DNA of 43,081 nucleotides from NCBI GenBank assembly GCA_016213925.1, contig JACQZH010000017.1, positions 1 through 43,081 on the forward strand, given 5' to 3'. The notes under the pieces are model-generated. The model made no database searches, was not told the origin of the DNA, and worked only from the letters and a program-made list of their open reading frames with translations. Below, piece by piece: positions 13,346 through 33,166 of the stretch. Positions within the stretch are counted from its first letter, which is position 1; each line of letters starts with the position of its first letter. The stretch comes from Candidatus Omnitrophota bacterium (lineage in GTDB: Bacteria; Omnitrophota; Gorgyraeia; B26-G9). Both the position numbers and the translations under genes were made by a program.

Positions 13346-14629
13346 TCAAAATGAATTTAAAATCCTAGCGGCTTCTTTTTCTCGCGCATTATCAAGTGGC
13401 CCAACAATTGCGCAGTTCAACCCTTCTTTTTTAAAAATAATTTCAGCCGCTTTAACGATATCTTTAGGCTGGACTTGTTTTACTTTCTTTACAACATCAG
13501 CAACAGTTTCCAGTTTTGATTTTACCATTATGCCCTCTCCTATCCAAAACATATGATCCATCATATCTTCGAGCCCCATCAGCAAATGACCGATGTAATA
13601 ATCTTTTGCCCTTTTAAGCTCATCCTCAGCTGGTTTCTTTCTTGAAATTCTATTTAATTCTTTTTGTATAATAGTCATGGCTACTTCAAGCTTTTCATTA
13701 ACAATCCCGCTGCTTATAACAAAACATCCCGTATCATCAAAAAGTTTTATCCCCGTGCTAATTTCGTAGGCAAGGCTTCTCTTCTCCCTTACCTCATTAA
13801 ATAAGCGGCTTGACATATTAGCGCCAAGAATTACATGCAAAAGAATTAATGCATATTTAAGCGGATGCTCCCGTTCAAACGCATGAAACCCCAGAGAGAT
13901 ATGCATTTGCTCGGTGTTTTTACTTATAAACTTAAATTGCGGTTTTTTTTGAGATACCGATACCTTTTCGAAATTAATTTTTTTTTCACTTTTAAAACTA
14001 CTCCAATCTTTTTTTAGCACTGATTTTATATTTAAAACCAGTTCATCGTGTTCTATATTGCCAGCGCAGCAAATAAGCATGTTATTAAAAATATAATGTT
14101 TATTTTTATATTCAATTAAATCATTTCGCTTAATGGAATTTAATGTTTTGAAATTTCCTGCTAGATTTCTGCCTAACGGATTGTTTGGCCATAATAGTTT
14201 AATCATTTCATCATAAACCAAATGATGCGGCAAATCATAATACATTCTAATTTCTTCAAAAATTACTAACTTTTCCTTATCTATATCGTTTTTTTTCAGC
14301 AGAGGATTAAGGCTAATATCAAACAACACATCCAACGCCTGTCTTTTATTAGAATCAAGCACTTTCGCCAGATAGCATGTGAGCTCTTCAGAAGTGAAAG
14401 CATTTAAAACCCCGCCAGTTCCTTCAATTTCTTCCTTTATTTGGCGAAAATTACGGTTTTTAGTACCTTTGAATACTAAATGCTCAATAAAATGAGATAC
14501 CCCGCTCAAGTGCTCAGATTCATGTCTTCCGCCTGCCCCAATCCAAACCCCCATTGCCACAGAACGAATTTTATGTTTTGTAAAAGAAGCAACTTTCAGG
14601 CCATTTTCTAATGTAGTAACATTATACAT
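13346..14629 (-). CDS. M16 family zinc peptidase (pitrilysin-like, short form)
   Basis: A zinc metallopeptidase of the processing-protease type. The inverted zinc motif HFIEH (His46, Glu49, His50) is in SGVSHFIEHLVFKGT, with the third ligand about 76 residues downstream in the VIFEEIRMYYD segment. The second domain carries the usual substrate-grip region (MSSRLFNEVREKRSLAYEIS). Its length of 427 aa is the single-chain M16B size. No signal peptide is seen, so it is probably cytoplasmic. It is the first gene of a long operon and has a consensus promoter 55 nt upstream. Substrates in the M16B class are generally unknown. Confidence 0.92.
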   Translation of the reverse strand: MYNVTTLENGLKVASFTKHKIRSVAMGVWIGAGGRHESEHLSGVSHFIEHLVFKGTKNRNFRQIKEEIEGTGGVLNAFTSEELTCYLAKVLDSNKRQALDVLFDISLNPLLKKNDIDKEKLVIFEEIRMYYDLPHHLVYDEMIKLLWPNNPLGRNLAGNFKTLNSIKRNDLIEYKNKHYIFNNMLICCAGNIEHDELVLNIKSVLKKDWSSFKSEKKINFEKVSVSQKKPQFKFISKNTEQMHISLGFHAFEREHPLKYALILLHVILGANMSSRLFNEVREKRSLAYEISTGIKLFDDTGCFVISSGIVNEKLEVAMTIIQKELNRISRKKPAEDELKRAKDYYIGHLLMGLEDMMDHMFWIGEGIMVKSKLETVADVVKKVKQVQPKDIVKAAEIIFKKEGLNCAIVGPLDNAREKEAARILNSF

Positions 14630-14683: not shown

Positions 14684-14712
14684 ATTTTACTTATTTTATG
14701 CCATTATGTCAA
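14684..14712 (-). promoter_or_regulatory. Sigma-70 promoter of the M16-to-gpsA operon
   Basis: On the minus strand TTGACA (14707-14712), a 17-nt spacer and TAAAAT (14684-14689) match the housekeeping consensus closely. It lies about 55 nt before the M16 peptidase start and immediately downstream of the terminator of the 65-aa gene. It probably drives all genes down to gpsA. Confidence 0.8.
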
Positions 14713-14745: not shown

Positions 14746-14783
14746 AAAAAAAAACGCATCCGTTTTTTGAAACACGGATGCGT
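14746..14783 (-). terminator. Rho-independent terminator of the 65-aa gene
   Basis: On the minus strand a perfect 10-bp stem ACGCATCCGT/ACGGATGCGT with a 10-nt loop is followed by nine T. It begins 21 nt after the stop of the 65-aa gene and separates it cleanly from the next operon. Confidence 0.92.
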
Positions 14784-14804
14784 ACTAAATTTTAATTATT
14801 TAAC

Positions 14805-15002
14805 TCAATGTTTTATCGTCTGCTTTAATTCAGCCAAATTCTTAGTCATTCTAATACAGAGGGCGTATTTTGATACATATAACTCATTTTGCACGAAAAA
14901 GTAGTATGCTATATACAAAGCACCGATCAAATGTACTTCATTACTGCCCGGCTCTTGCTGTACCTGGAATCTCCTTTGAATAAATAAGTTATTGCTATTC
15001 AT
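14805..15002 (-). CDS. Orphan 65-aa protein with complete expression signals
   Basis: A stand-alone small gene, well supported by its signals. A consensus promoter lies 82-110 nt upstream, AAAGGAGG is 5-6 nt before the ATG, and a perfect terminator follows. The product has a polar N-terminus (MNSNNLFIQRRFQVQQEPGS), a hydrophobic or aromatic middle (IGALYIAYYFFV) and a basic C-terminus (RMTKNLAELKQTIKH). The hydrophobic part is short for a membrane helix. I recognise no family. Strong promoter plus monocistronic design suggests a highly expressed regulator or structural microprotein. Confidence 0.75.
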   Translation of the reverse strand: MNSNNLFIQRRFQVQQEPGSNEVHLIGALYIAYYFFVQNELYVSKYALCIRMTKNLAELKQTIKH

Positions 15003-15083
15003 TGCGCCCTCCTTTCGTAAAATTTTAAATACTTTTAAAATGTTCTTAAATTATTGATAAAAAAAATACTTATCTATGTTATT

Positions 15084-15112
15084 AGTATAGCATTTTAAAG
15101 CGAATTTGTCAA
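15084..15112 (-). promoter_or_regulatory. Consensus sigma-70 promoter of the 65-aa gene
   Basis: TTGACA (15107-15112), 17-nt spacer, TATACT (15084-15089) on the minus strand. This is the closest match to consensus in the window. It leaves a leader of about 75 nt before the ATG at 15002. It starts only 19 nt past the stop of the outer-membrane protein remnant. Confidence 0.88.
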
Positions 15113-15131: not shown

Positions 15132-15859
15132 TTAAAATTTAACAGTAGCACCGATTTGATGAGTATAATCCTGCATTCCAGCAGGCGCATCCTGCCAGGC
15201 AATAAACGTATAATCAACGTAATACGTTACTTCTTCTATATTTAGATGATCTGTCCTTTGGCAGCCCAATCCAAGGCTATATTTATATTTTCAAGCAGGA
15301 AACCAAAAGTAACATCCTGATTGATATACCATAAATACCCCAGATTTATACTAATAACCGCATCAGTATTACTAACACCAATAACTTCAGCGTCGAAGTA
15401 ATAATAATTAAGCCCTACACCTACGGACATTTCCGGGGCAAAAGAAAAATTTCTCCCATAGGAAATTCCTGCCTGCCATAATGAAGTATTTACATTTTTC
15501 TCCTGATCATCAAATCCGCTATTATGAAAATACATGCCAATTCCACCCAAACTGCCGTATTCCTCATGATATGCTTTTTTAAGCGGCTGGGCAAACGCAG
15601 CATAATCATCGCTAACAAAATCCGCACTTACATAATCATCGCGGTTATTAATTATTCCAGAATAAGTAAATTCTTTTTCCTGCTGCCAGGCCAACCCCGC
15701 AGGATTCCAGCTCGCAGCATGAACATCATCAGATAAAGCTATATAAGCGCCTCCAAGCGAAATCGGCCTGCCACCGCCCTCGGCAGCTAAACACGCACCC
15801 CAAATATTCATTAGGCAAAAAATTATCAAAAATTGGTAAATAATCTTTAAATATTTCAT
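15132..15859 (-). pseudogene. PorV/PorQ-like outer-membrane beta-barrel protein, frameshifted
   Basis: The start at ATG 15859 has AAGGAG 7 nt upstream, and the ATG overlaps the C25 protease stop (ATGA). A signal peptide (to about CLAAEG) is followed by GRPISLGGAYIALSDD and SWNPAGLAW, the hallmark N-terminus of PorV/UPF0164-type barrels. The frame ends at 15242 after DWAAKGQII. In the +1 frame the sequence continues as barrel-like strands (EEVTYYVDYTFIAWQDAPAG) and ends IGATVKF at 15132. A terminal aromatic residue is what the BAM machinery recognises. The product would be about 240 aa, shorter than the usual 280-320, so an internal loss plus frameshift is likely, or an assembly error. Confidence 0.75.
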
Positions 15860-18393
15860 CGATAAACTCCTTGAGTTAAACAATCACCCATTGAAACTAC
15901 TGTTCGTAATAAATATCTAACTACGCATTTAAGTTGGTTATCATTTTTAATAATATTCGCAAAATATGGGCCGATTAAGTAATATACTGCAACAAACTGC
16001 CTGCCAAATGGCCGCTTTATTAAATATCTATCCCTAAATTTTCGTAAAATTTTTACGCAAAGATCATCCCTGGAACCAAAGCATACTGTAGCAACAAAGC
16101 AGTCGCTCCTGCCTGTATTTTCACTGCCTGCGATTCCTCCTATAGCAACAGTTGCCCGGTTATTCACCGCAGAACTACCTTCATAATTCGAACCATCATA
16201 TCCAAAAGCAACATAATGATATGTAGTATTAGCCTCTATATTCGTATGATTAAAAGTATCCACAGCGCCAACCGATGCCGGTCTCGTACATAAAAGAGCA
16301 CCATCAGTTTCACTAGCAGGATAAACTCCATCTGTACGGTAACGTACCATAGTACTCTGCACTGTTGCACGGCTTGAGTTTTTCCATCTAGTCACCACCC
16401 AGCTTGCGTTTGAAAAAGCAATAGGGCTTGCCGAAAAATCAGTCGGAGATAATAAAGACGCATTGATCTGCGTTTGCGGATCACCAAGTAAATTCAGCGT
16501 ATAGTAACACCAGCGGTTAGCCGTATCATTAATAACTCCAACATGGTCTTCTTTGGCATCCTGCAATGCTTTTCCTAGATTAAGCTTTCCTTCAGAAACA
16601 ACCCCATCCCAGAATTCACGGTGAAACCTTTGAGAAGGCCCGTCAGTACTTCCAGAAGCATACCAACCATAACGAGAATTACCAATACAAGCAAAAGCCC
16701 CTGCGCTTGCAACAACTAAATGTTCAAGCACGCTGTCTAAAGTCTCGTATGTAGAGGTCGCTGTAGTGCGATTATCAAAAGCACCAGAATAACATCCTTG
16801 CGTAAAACAAAGAAAATATTTTGTATTTGTCAGCGCGTCCGCGTCTGTGGTAGAAAATGTCTTGGAAAAAACAGTATTATTAGCATGCCCTAAATGATTT
16901 AGAATATGAATATTACTGTTCATTTTGTTTATCAGATTATTAGTTGTCCAAGCCCAATCCTGCTCATACAAAGAACTGAAATTAAAAAAACCAGAGCCAT
17001 TCATCCCTACCGTAGTATATCCATTTGCACTAGAGCCATTTTGGATTTCCAGCATATACGGCTTCCCATAAGTAAGTGAATCAAGCTGTTCGCTGACCAT
17101 ACAGACATTTGTCCGATAACTGTCTGTGGAATTTTCGTACGCAATTGTTTTTTTAACAAAGTTAGAAACTTCTGTGGAAGAATCGACAGGAGCCCTGCCG
17201 ACAAAAACATCGGCAACAAGATCAATATCAGTACCTCCTGTACCATCAGTAGCCTCTGCGTATATTCCATCCTCATCACTGTCAAATGTGCCGTCTAAAC
17301 AAGCGTAATAGAGATCTGCAGGAATATTATTATCACCGCTTGTCCCATCAACATCTGCGTAAAATCCGCGGGCAGGAACAACCGGAGTTGCTTGAGTTTC
17401 CCCGCTGGCAAGACCGCTAGCATCTCCGTCACCGCCTAAAAGCACATATTCGGCTGAATGGTTAGAATAATAATCGCTTATAAAATTTCTCACTCTAGTC
17501 GCATTATCTGAAGCACCATCCGGACGGATTCCTGAATAATTAGCATAAATCCATTCAGTTGTAATAATTTCAGCGGTTAATCCCTGCGCCTGTTTTTGAG
17601 CAATCAGATCCTGAAAGGTATACGTTCCGGTAGCATTTTTCAATGCATCACTGGTAATTATTACATATTGCACTGAATGTAAAGGCTTAATAGCAGGCTG
17701 TACACCAGAATAAGTTTTCCCCTCTTCGGAATTATCAACAAATTTTTCAACTTTTGCCATATCAGACGGCAAGCCGCGAAATAACTCATGCGGTTTGGCA
17801 CCGGCAACATCTTCCAATTCAATGGATAAATTCATGTTTTCATAATACGATATCTCTCCGGTTGCCGGCACATAACTAACCGGATATAAATTGATAATAG
17901 CAACCTGATATCCTCTTATAAATTGCGTAGATACCTGGCTATATAATTTTCCGGGATAATCATCGTATGAACTGTAAATTTTTGGATCCGGCATTGTAGG
18001 AGTAATGCTTCCTTGATAACTAAGCGGAATAGGCATTGGCACAGGTTCAACACGATAACTACCTTCAAGAACCTTTTTATCTGTCCAATTCACATTAATT
18101 CCCGTTACTTTTTTGCCATATGGAACCAGAAATTTTACGGTCTTTACCGGGAGCGAAGGTTCTGCAGGATCTCCGGAATTAATCAGGCCTTCAATACTGA
18201 CCCGGTCAAAATTATTGACTCTATTTATTAAAACTTCTTTAACTTCAGCAGTGAGGTTATTCGATTGTATCTTTAAATGAAAAGCCGGCTCGCTATTTGC
18301 CTGCGAATAAACAGAAGGCACACTAAAAAACATTAGGAGAAAACTATAAAAAAACCAAAAAAATATTTTTTCTGTTGAACTATTTAACTTCAT
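15856..18393 (-). CDS. Secreted C25 (gingipain-family) cysteine protease with CFI-box C-terminal domain
   Basis: An exported 845-aa protein. A signal peptide ends near VYSQA (about residue 31). Residues 35-230 resemble the C25 propeptide, with repeated beta strands. The catalytic domain (about 240-645) contains the family His in HLGHANN (His503) and the nucleophile in FTQGCYSGAFD (Cys534). A fibronectin-like or Ig-like domain (652-750) follows. Residues 765-836, beginning CFVATVCFGS with a later FRDRYL and GRQFVAVYY, match the CFI-box-CTERM domain, a C-terminal module of unknown function found on exported proteins. It overlaps the secretin by 14 nt and the porin-like gene by 4 nt. The linkage recalls the PorU/PorV pair of type IX secretion. 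Substrate or sortase role is unproven. Confidence 0.88.
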   Translation of the reverse strand: MKLNSSTEKIFFWFFYSFLLMFFSVPSVYSQANSEPAFHLKIQSNNLTAEVKEVLINRVNNFDRVSIEGLINSGDPAEPSLPVKTVKFLVPYGKKVTGINVNWTDKKVLEGSYRVEPVPMPIPLSYQGSITPTMPDPKIYSSYDDYPGKLYSQVSTQFIRGYQVAIINLYPVSYVPATGEISYYENMNLSIELEDVAGAKPHELFRGLPSDMAKVEKFVDNSEEGKTYSGVQPAIKPLHSVQYVIITSDALKNATGTYTFQDLIAQKQAQGLTAEIITTEWIYANYSGIRPDGASDNATRVRNFISDYYSNHSAEYVLLGGDGDASGLASGETQATPVVPARGFYADVDGTSGDNNIPADLYYACLDGTFDSDEDGIYAEATDGTGGTDIDLVADVFVGRAPVDSSTEVSNFVKKTIAYENSTDSYRTNVCMVSEQLDSLTYGKPYMLEIQNGSSANGYTTVGMNGSGFFNFSSLYEQDWAWTTNNLINKMNSNIHILNHLGHANNTVFSKTFSTTDADALTNTKYFLCFTQGCYSGAFDNRTTATSTYETLDSVLEHLVVASAGAFACIGNSRYGWYASGSTDGPSQRFHREFWDGVVSEGKLNLGKALQDAKEDHVGVINDTANRWCYYTLNLLGDPQTQINASLLSPTDFSASPIAFSNASWVVTRWKNSSRATVQSTMVRYRTDGVYPASETDGALLCTRPASVGAVDTFNHTNIEANTTYHYVAFGYDGSNYEGSSAVNNRATVAIGGIAGSENTGRSDCFVATVCFGSRDDLCVKILRKFRDRYLIKRPFGRQFVAVYYLIGPYFANIIKNDNQLKCVVRYLLRTVVSMGDCLTQGVYR

Positions 18394-19903
18394 CTTTATC
18401 CTTGTCCCATTCTATCCATTTCCGCTGTGCCTCCTGCACTGCATCTTCTATTGCCTGCTCACGAACAATCCGTTCTTCCTCTTTACGGCCGTAATCCTGT
18501 TGTATAATATGCGGAGTTATAAAAACAACGATTTCTTTTTTTGTTTTTGTCTTCGCACTGCTTCTAAATATCAGCCCGAGTAAAGGAATATCGCCGAGAA
18601 ACGGCACTTTTGTCTGAATTTTCGATTCGCTATCTTTGATCAATCCCCCCAAAACAATGGTCTTACCATTTTTAACAACCACCGTAGTATCAGCCTGTGT
18701 AGTATCTACAGCAAGCGAATTATTCACCTCGGCAACCCGGCGCGCTGAACTAACTTCCGGATGTATTTTAAGCGTAATATAATCATCTTTGCTGATCTTA
18801 GGAGTAACATTCAATTTTACACCGACATCAATAAACTTGGTTTCTTCCGTTTGAGTATTAGTTTCTTTATCAATATAAGTTACCAGATACGGCTCCGAAC
18901 TTCCAACTAATATGTTTGCCTCTTTATTATCCACGACAACTATCCTCGGATTTGACAAAATATTGGTGTCAGTCATATTTTCCAAAGCCTGTATCGTAGC
19001 TTCATATTGATCCTCATCTAACGTTCCCACTTTCAGAGTCCCTCCACTGCTTATACTTGCCGGCAAATTTGCGCCAATTCTGACTGCATTTTCTCCCGCA
19101 GTACTAAGATATTCCCAATTAATACCTAACCCTTTGGTCTTATCCAAAGAAACCTCAATGATTCTTGCTTCGATCAATACCTGCTGAGAACGCTTATCCC
19201 AGTTACTGATTAACATGTCAGTTTTTTCGATAACTTCAGGGATCGCCCTTACCACTAAACTGTTAGTGCGTTCATCAATAAAAATCTCCCCTTCCTGCTT
19301 AGGTATTATCTCAAGAAGTTTAGTTTGAAGCTCCTTTGATTCCGCATAATTGAGATTATACACCTTAGTAACTAGCTTGCGATCTAAAACAACAATCGAC
19401 TCCTCAATTTCATTTAATACATCAACTGTATCCGTTACTATTATCTGATTCGACATCGAATTTATCTCGATTCTGCCCCGCGGTGATTTTATTGAATTAA
19501 GCACTTGCCTTAAATCTCCGGCTTTAATATTTTTTAAAAAGAAAATCCGGCTGATCAGTTTTTCCGTTTGTTCCTGCTGCAAAATATCCTGCTGCGTAAA
19601 AACCTTTATTATGCCGCGTTCATGCTTATACATGAAATTGTTTGTCTCCAGGATCGCATTCAAAGCCTGTTCGACACTAACATCATCTAATTTTGCCGTT
19701 ACTCTGCCTTGCACATTGCGGCTAGCGACTATATTTACCTGGCCCTGTTCAGACAGTAACCTTAAAACATCAAGGATACTCATATTTTTCACATCAAGAT
19801 TCATGCGAAGCACTTGCAAATCATCCTGCGCATACATAATGTTTGCACTAAGAAGAGCCCCTAAAATAATTATAAAAATTAGCTCGAATTTATTTTTCAT
19901 CAT
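18380..19903 (-). CDS. Secretin (GspD/PilQ family) outer-membrane channel
   Basis: A 507-aa outer-membrane secretin. After a signal peptide (to about MYAQ) an N0/STN domain (about 30-95, LDVKNMSILDVLRLLSEQG) is followed by two NolW-like N domains (about 115-230). The secretin core then carries the family signature VPFLGDIPLLGLIFRS near the C-terminus, and GKTIVLGGLI. It is shorter than typical GspD (600-700 aa) because of fewer N domains. It starts ATGATG, and its first ATG overlaps the upstream 55-aa gene. No ATPase or pseudopilin is in the window, so type II secretion versus type IV pilus cannot be decided. It may export the C25 protease next door. Confidence 0.9.
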   Translation of the reverse strand: MMKNKFELIFIIILGALLSANIMYAQDDLQVLRMNLDVKNMSILDVLRLLSEQGQVNIVASRNVQGRVTAKLDDVSVEQALNAILETNNFMYKHERGIIKVFTQQDILQQEQTEKLISRIFFLKNIKAGDLRQVLNSIKSPRGRIEINSMSNQIIVTDTVDVLNEIEESIVVLDRKLVTKVYNLNYAESKELQTKLLEIIPKQEGEIFIDERTNSLVVRAIPEVIEKTDMLISNWDKRSQQVLIEARIIEVSLDKTKGLGINWEYLSTAGENAVRIGANLPASISSGGTLKVGTLDEDQYEATIQALENMTDTNILSNPRIVVVDNKEANILVGSSEPYLVTYIDKETNTQTEETKFIDVGVKLNVTPKISKDDYITLKIHPEVSSARRVAEVNNSLAVDTTQADTTVVVKNGKTIVLGGLIKDSESKIQTKVPFLGDIPLLGLIFRSSAKTKTKKEIVVFITPHIIQQDYGRKEEERIVREQAIEDAVQEAQRKWIEWDKDKDEVK

Positions 19904-31567: not shown

Positions 31568-31644
31568 TGGTGCCCCTGAGACGATTCGAACGTCCGGCAC
31601 ACGGTTTAGGAAACCGTTGCTCTATCCTTCTGAGCTACAGGGGC
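31568..31644 (-). tRNA. tRNA-Arg (anticodon CCU)
   Basis: The minus strand folds as a full cloverleaf. The acceptor stem pairs GCCCCTG with CAGGGGC. The anticodon stem ACGGT/ACCGT holds loop TTCCTAA, giving CCT (CCU) for AGG codons. The T-arm is GGACG/CGTCT around TTCGAAT, with one G-U pair. The 3' CCA is encoded. Minor-codon tRNA-Arg genes are frequent integration sites, but I see no integrase or duplicated 3' end here. Confidence 0.95.
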
Positions 31645-33127: not shown

Positions 33128-33166
33128 AATAAAAAAGAGAGAGATGCGCCAGTCATCTCTCTCTTT
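33128..33166 (-). terminator. Strong terminator of the phoH-apt operon
   Basis: On the minus strand a perfect 13-bp stem AAAGAGAGAGATG/CATCTCTCTCTTT with a 7-nt loop runs into TTTATT. It lies 18 nt past the apt stop and ends the long operon starting beyond the right edge. Confidence 0.88.

Follow-up and report, generated by a model that had tools for sequence, protein, structure and literature searches.

A 65-residue orphan protein gene with conserved expression signals in one family-level group of uncultured Omnitrophota

The window, i.e. the whole stretch of 43,081 nucleotides analysed here (contig JACQZH010000017.1 of the Candidatus Omnitrophota bacterium assembly GCA_016213925.1), encodes on its minus strand an orphan protein of 65 amino acid residues, for which the name sp65 was coined. 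sp65 is a genuine protein-coding gene with a reading frame under purifying selection, and among the genomes searched it has so far turned up only in a single family-level group of uncultured Omnitrophota. By searches of genomes of its class and phylum and of family, PDB, phage, plasmid and viral collections, it constitutes a lineage-restricted orphan family. Small families restricted to one lineage of an uncultured taxon are well known as a kind. As read from the sequence, the gene appears to form a monocistronic unit of the sigma-70 type, with its own promoter and its own terminator kept in all ten orthologues.

The sp65 transcription unit

The unit occupies positions 14746-15112 on the minus strand and matches, base for base, the unit described in an earlier note on this DNA. 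The features of the locus are:

15084..15112, minus strand: promoter TTGACA-17-TATACT with a TG extension (extended -10), from a site scan and the alignment of ten orthologues
15003..15077, minus strand: 5' leader of about 75 nt, AU-rich, its start placed about 7 nt past the -10
15030..15048, minus strand: leader element TAAGAACATTTTAAAAGTA, from a multiple alignment with the conserved TAAGTACTTTTAWAATGTA of the relatives
15008..15015, minus strand: Shine-Dalgarno sequence AAAGGAGG, from sequence reading and orthologue comparison
14805..15002, minus strand: sp65, gene of the 65-aa orphan protein, predicted beta-beta-beta-alpha
14746..14783, minus strand: intrinsic terminator with a perfect 10-bp stem, a 10-nt loop and a T-run, from the sequence and a shuffle scan
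14684..14712, minus strand: promoter TTGACA-17-TAAAAT of the next unit, ahead of the M16 peptidase gene, from a site scan and alignment
13346..14629, minus strand: M16 peptidase gene (Peptidase_M16 and M16_C), the downstream neighbour, from Pfam and synteny

A spacer of 17 bp separates the -35 hexamer TTGACA (15112-15107) from the -10 hexamer TATACT (15089-15084). The frame opens with an ATG at 15002-15000 and comprises 65 codons, with a stop that ends at 14805, and the terminator hairpin ACGCATCCGT/ACGGATGCGT (14783-14754) is followed by a T-run that reaches 14746. Promoter, AAAGGAGG, 65 codons and perfect 10-bp terminator were all found exactly where the earlier note had placed them.

That note had also called the unit the best-defined one in the window, which is a fair description by shuffle comparison, with the caution that promoter-like sites overall are not above chance. 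Three promoter-like sites in the window agree with the consensus in at least 11 of 12 bases (mean of 60 shuffles 1.75), and the only one of them that carries the TG extension is the sp65 promoter (shuffle mean 0.13). Between 10 and 20 kb of the window, 27 promoter-like sites were found where 33.0 are expected in such AT-rich DNA. As the class does not exceed chance, the case rests on the quality and the conservation of the sp65 site. The window has two terminator-like sites whose stem is perfect over 8 bp or more (mean of 20 shuffles 0.3); the other one, near 33166 on the minus strand, has an A-rich stem of 13 bp. A terminator scan with loops of up to 8 nt omits the sp65 hairpin because its loop measures 10 nt.

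The signals recur among the relatives. The 17-bp spacer and the TGnTATACT motif are present in 10/10 orthologues, and TTGACA is exact in eight of them, two g3 genomes having TTGCAC or TTGCGC instead. A hairpin with a T-run lies 3' of sp65 in every orthologue, nine detected by script and one (G006) by eye; in the latter the stem extends further, its A-run pairing with the T-run, so that the script missed the hairpin. Several orthologues share the stem AAAGCTCCTC...GAGGAGCTTTTTT; the letters of the window's stem differ, with the hairpin kept. Most copies have a strong Shine-Dalgarno sequence, and with transcription taken to start 7 nt past the -10 the leaders measure 58-79 nt. Conserved in all ten copies, promoter and terminator agree with the monocistronic-looking unit that the earlier note had read from the window alone.

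The leader was dismissed as an RNA gene or riboswitch, as RNAalifold returned no consensus pairs for it and the only Rfam match of the window is a tRNA gene (31571-31644, minus strand). The whole sp65 transcript folds better than its shuffles (z -2.77), a figure that includes the terminator and from which no conclusion is drawn.

Distribution and genomic context

The first search covered 98 genomes, namely that of the window, 11 others from its family-level group and 86 from its class. Orthologues were found in nine of the 11 other family genomes (E 1.4e-16 or better). At E up to 1, 21 genomes had a match; 11 of these, all among the 86 class genomes, had weak matches only (E 0.0265 or worse) and were not counted as orthologues, nor were four weak rows in sp65-bearing genomes. 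When 384 genomes of the class were searched with a profile, 10 of the 12 family genomes matched with E 5.3e-33 or better. The 372 other class genomes yielded four weak fragments (E 0.001-0.0084) of 24-37 positions, two of them with internal stops, which fall within the E limit set and were left out of the orthologue count. In a draw of 384 genomes from the phylum, nine matched at E 1e-3, all from the family of sp65. Nine named relatives are metagenome-assembled genomes labelled 'Candidatus Omnitrophota bacterium', in line with the Omnitrophota-like genomes of which the earlier note had spoken.

The sp65 frame is free of stops in all ten copies. Across nine of the ten genomes, pairwise identity is 44-88%, and 15 of the 65 positions are invariant in the ten copies: M1, L6, F7, I8, R10, R11, Y30, A32, Y33, Y34, L41, V43, Y46, A47 and K54. 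The sole same-genus pair with two copies (G002 and G010) has a dN of 0.05 at a dS of 0.60. For the other pairs dN lies between 0.14 and 0.46 and synonymous sites are mostly saturated, with the exception of G003 and G006 (dS 0.82, dN 0.24).

Searches of Pfam, NCBIfam, PHROGs, PADLOC and PDB sequences gave nothing convincing for sp65. The best weak matches had E values of 0.15 (Pfam DUF7415), 0.038 (NCBIfam) and 1.2 (PDB), and a Pfam scan of nine members at E up to 10 returned DUF7415 alone, in one member. The earlier note had described the protein as a lineage-specific orphan that matches nothing known, and had named two outcomes that would speak against it, a lack of both homologue and transcript in related genomes and a hit to a known family. 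Neither was observed: the profile search it had proposed recovered the gene in same-family genomes, and the five collections produced no convincing family. In searches of the literature on Omnitrophota small proteins, on Omnitrophota transcriptomes and on sp65 peptides, sp65 was absent among the matches listed.

sp65 lies directly upstream of the M16 peptidase gene in all nine loci assembled on that side, the window included. As far as assembled, the downstream order is M16, rpe, a phosphoglucomutase/phosphomannomutase-family gene, labelled glmM here, and lepA. The M16 promoter follows soon after the sp65 terminator and is kept in most relatives. The upstream side varies. Five loci, the window among them, have C25 peptidase and secretin genes there, and G003 has a metallo-beta-lactamase-fold gene; the remaining loci, whose assembled upstream stretches are short, showed none of the genes looked for. 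In the window, the region 15242-19903 encodes a secretin, a 213-aa protein lacking a Pfam match and a C25 peptidase of the gingipain type that has a propeptide, and resembles a system for secretion or for surface proteolysis.

In 12 genomes of other families, sp65 was absent before M16 in 12/12 loci (up to 700 nt upstream). The frames found upstream there were four assigned by Pfam (two RuvX, two TrpA) and eight assigned by eye (seven RuvX-like, one TrpA-like). Since M16 occurs in other families without sp65, the small gene is probably a later arrival in an old gene order, and its function need not be linked to that of its neighbours. Pairwise identities of sp65 and M16 in nine of the ten genomes (G004, whose contig lacks M16, was left out) gave no significant sign of co-evolution (Spearman 0.44, permutation p 0.06).

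Two family genomes were without a match. G009 is 69% complete and no orthologous M16 locus was found in it, so that it is uninformative on sp65. In G001, which belongs to the same genus as G011 and is 92% complete, no copy of sp65 was found anywhere in the assembly, and M16 is directly preceded by a dispersed repeat. What had looked like the upstream flank of a clean empty site proved to be this repeat; the absence may be due to a deletion, to a gap in the assembly, or to an insertion of the repeat between sp65 and M16 at which the contig then broke off. The gene may therefore be dispensable, which would count against the important role suggested in the earlier note, or may just be missing from that assembly. 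The repeat core has 32 matches in G001 and 28 in G011 (reversed control 0-1) and none in the window's genome (G000) or in G009 of the same genus. The repeat itself, AATTCCCCCTATCTGTTTAA...GTGTTTTCTATCTAGGAGTTGGGG (L035 209-259, L026 33-83, also L065-L070), is MITE-like by eye.

Predicted structure of sp65

AlphaFold models of the window's sp65 and of the orthologue from G005 agree in a beta-beta-beta-alpha arrangement, with mean pLDDT values of 89.5 and 91.9 and pTM values of 0.58 and 0.60, respectively. In the window's protein the strands span residues 5-16, 22-37 and 40-55 and the helix residues 56-64. sp65 is hence predicted to fold into an antiparallel sheet of three strands with a single helix as its cap. 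Inspection by eye revealed neither a signal peptide nor a membrane span. The predicted pI lies between 7.8 and 10.0 (above 8.5 in nine of ten copies) and aromatic residues make up 14-21%; the window's protein has 7 K/R versus 4 D/E, a small net positive charge.

By strand alternation, I8, R10, F12, Y30, A32, Y34, L41, V43, K45 and A47 share one face of the sheet. Mean column identity is 0.88 for that face, 0.81 for the other face, 0.66 for the helix and 0.53 for the loops. The two faces differ modestly, and the invariant residues F7, R11, Y33 and Y46 sit on the other one. Both faces are largely hydrophobic and the helix can cover one of them, hence the other probably packs against another chain; face assignment and packing were derived from the sequence and the strand limits.

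Comparison with PDB structures gave no match at E up to 1e-3 and none at Z of at least 5. The most frequent structural rows were coat proteins of ssRNA phages, all structural rows having Z below 5, and actin-capping proteins, COMM domains and pore-formers rank beside nucleic-acid-binding sheets. The arrangement also occurs in predicted viral proteins about as long as sp65, the best Foldseek match (E 8.7e-4) being a 67-aa protein of an uncultured virus. The beta-beta-beta-alpha arrangement is a common one, and kinship to these structural neighbours is not implied by the models. The structure prediction that the earlier note had suggested as a check yielded, in sum, a confident beta-beta-beta-alpha model without a clear structural match.

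Possible roles and comparison with known systems

Our main proposal is that sp65 would have a transcript of its own, started at an extended -10 promoter of the housekeeping (sigma-70) type, and that an unstructured AU-rich leader and a strong ribosome site would serve its translation; from the combination of these three signals the protein is probably abundant and constitutive. It would be a small soluble protein of the cytoplasm, forming a homo-oligomer via the conserved hydrophobic, basic/aromatic sheet face, and the arginine, lysine and tyrosine side chains of that face could contact a partner of negative charge, for which RNA or ssDNA is the most plausible candidate. We infer abundance, location, oligomeric state and ligand on top of a predicted fold, and regard the whole chain, from an abundant cytoplasmic oligomer to the binding of a polyanion, as possible and as a tentative reading. 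Nucleic-acid-binding sheets (Whirly, ssRNA phage coat proteins) are among the structural neighbours with Z below 5. As no structural match reaches Z 5, these neighbours may reflect the common arrangement alone, and the nucleic-acid step is a weak one. The low pTM values, the modest contrast between the two faces, the four invariant residues on the other face and the small net charge also speak against the proposal.

A serious candidate, though short of an even chance, is that the leader acts as a translational enhancer, i.e. an unstructured AU-rich standby or S1-type site, and that sp65 is an abundant protein of housekeeping or stress whose target is another protein and not nucleic acid. An AU-rich leader without consensus structure and the strong Shine-Dalgarno sequence of most copies agree with such a role, the two hydrophobic sheet faces would suit a protein-protein scaffold, and sheet matches to capping protein and COMM score about like those to RNA-binding sheets. 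This reading leaves the invariant R10, R11 and K54 and the mostly basic nature of the protein unexplained. A protein-binding scaffold with a translation-enhancing leader has, in our estimate, a likelihood near that of the nucleic-acid proposal.

Some RNA-binding sheet proteins repress their own translation via the leader. An autogenous regulator of this kind, in which sp65 would bind its own leader element and repress its own translation, appears unlikely. The leaders of the orthologues carry TAAGTACTTTTAWAATGTA or a variant of it. A motif search gave 14.5 bits, whereas 60 shuffles averaged 9.3 and peaked at 10.3; the shuffles ignore shared ancestry and had 12 restarts versus 30 for the real run. 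At up to two mismatches, TAAGTACTTTTAWAATGTA has one copy each in G002, G006, G010 and G011, always at sp65, and none in G000, the fifth of the five genomes searched; the searched pattern was drawn partly from genomes it was searched in. An element that is private to sp65 in four of five genomes and does not reliably recur in the M16 leader (p < 0.05 in one of nine testable genomes, G011, p 0.003) behaves as a cis element, and a regulon was rejected on the same distribution. On the other side, the leader is without RNA structure, an AU-rich element could simply help translation, and the element is degenerate in G000, G004 and G005. The window's own version is one base longer than TAAGTACTTTTAWAATGTA and weaker than in most relatives, and the motif search picked a different site in this genome than the multiple alignment did (15030-15048). 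Still a little less likely is the broadest version, namely that sp65 founds a new miniature sheet-and-helix family of RNA-binding proteins and serves, in this one Omnitrophota family, as an abundant RNA chaperone or translational regulator that controls itself via TAAGTACTTTTAWAATGTA.

A functional tie of sp65 to the adjacent M16 peptidase, as its inhibitor, adaptor or substrate, would fit the fixed position directly upstream of M16-rpe in the nine assembled loci; the separate terminator and promoter, the 12 loci of other families in which M16 lacks sp65 and the tendency of housekeeping neighbours to remain together regardless render it quite improbable.

A mobile origin was also considered. 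With one orthologue as query, phage and plasmid sequences gave no match, and in viral contigs, where the search depends on short shared patterns, 149 stretches matched a short pattern and none was confirmed; the idea was set aside on these results. The profile phrog_15376 matched three of nine members (best E 0.0026). This kinship was judged to be noise, as the profile also matches 5 of 14 control genomes; in the 13 genomes searched with it, its three best matches are stretches of 20-24 positions of sp65. A phage or mobile-element gene captured and kept in one family is the least probable reading, for which the fold shared with small predicted viral proteins and the weak PHROG matches, some of them in register, may be quoted, and against which stand these searches, the control genomes, the fixed synteny, the purifying selection and the commonness of the fold.

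It is a recognised blind spot that uncultured phyla contain small orphan proteins kept across several genera. Owing to its unusually clean conserved signals and its confident predicted fold, sp65 lends itself to expression, crystallisation and functional tests even though its host is uncultured. For now it adds one family, of moderate interest, to those restricted to a single lineage; an RNA-binding autoregulator, if shown, would be of wider interest.

Three known systems resemble the predicted protein in their arrangement of sheet and helix. The coat proteins of the ssRNA phages PP7, MS2 and Qbeta likewise consist of an antiparallel sheet followed by a helix. Their rows reach Z 3.7-4.6 over 45-63 residues, which is part of a coat chain of about 130 residues. 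In contrast to this likeness in arrangement, sp65 has no sequence similarity to them, about half their length and Z values below the level at which kinship is suggested. The COMM domain of COMMD proteins, which are obligate dimers, also has three strands followed by a helix (Z 3.7-4.2), whereas COMM_domain was not among the Pfam matches of nine sp65 members (E up to 10). The ssDNA-binding Whirly proteins, similar in their sheet-plus-helix architecture, rank first in the comparison with the window's model (Z 4.5, rmsd 3.2, 54 aligned); they are absent among the best 50 rows for the second model (G005) and have no sequence match to sp65.

At the level of families, sp65 can be set beside the FESNov families, from a paper of which we take Rodriguez del Rio to be the first author. 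By that paper's description, FESNov synapomorphies are defined at the level of phylum, class or order with 90% coverage of the clade (PMC10849945). sp65, compared by the same description, differs in its rank, being found at family level; its coverage is 10 of 12 genomes (83%), or 10 of 11 with the incomplete G009 set aside. In the features that the paper describes, sp65 is like the FESNov-type families: small, unassigned, confined to one uncultivated lineage, under purifying selection and kept in a conserved genomic context (PMC10849945).
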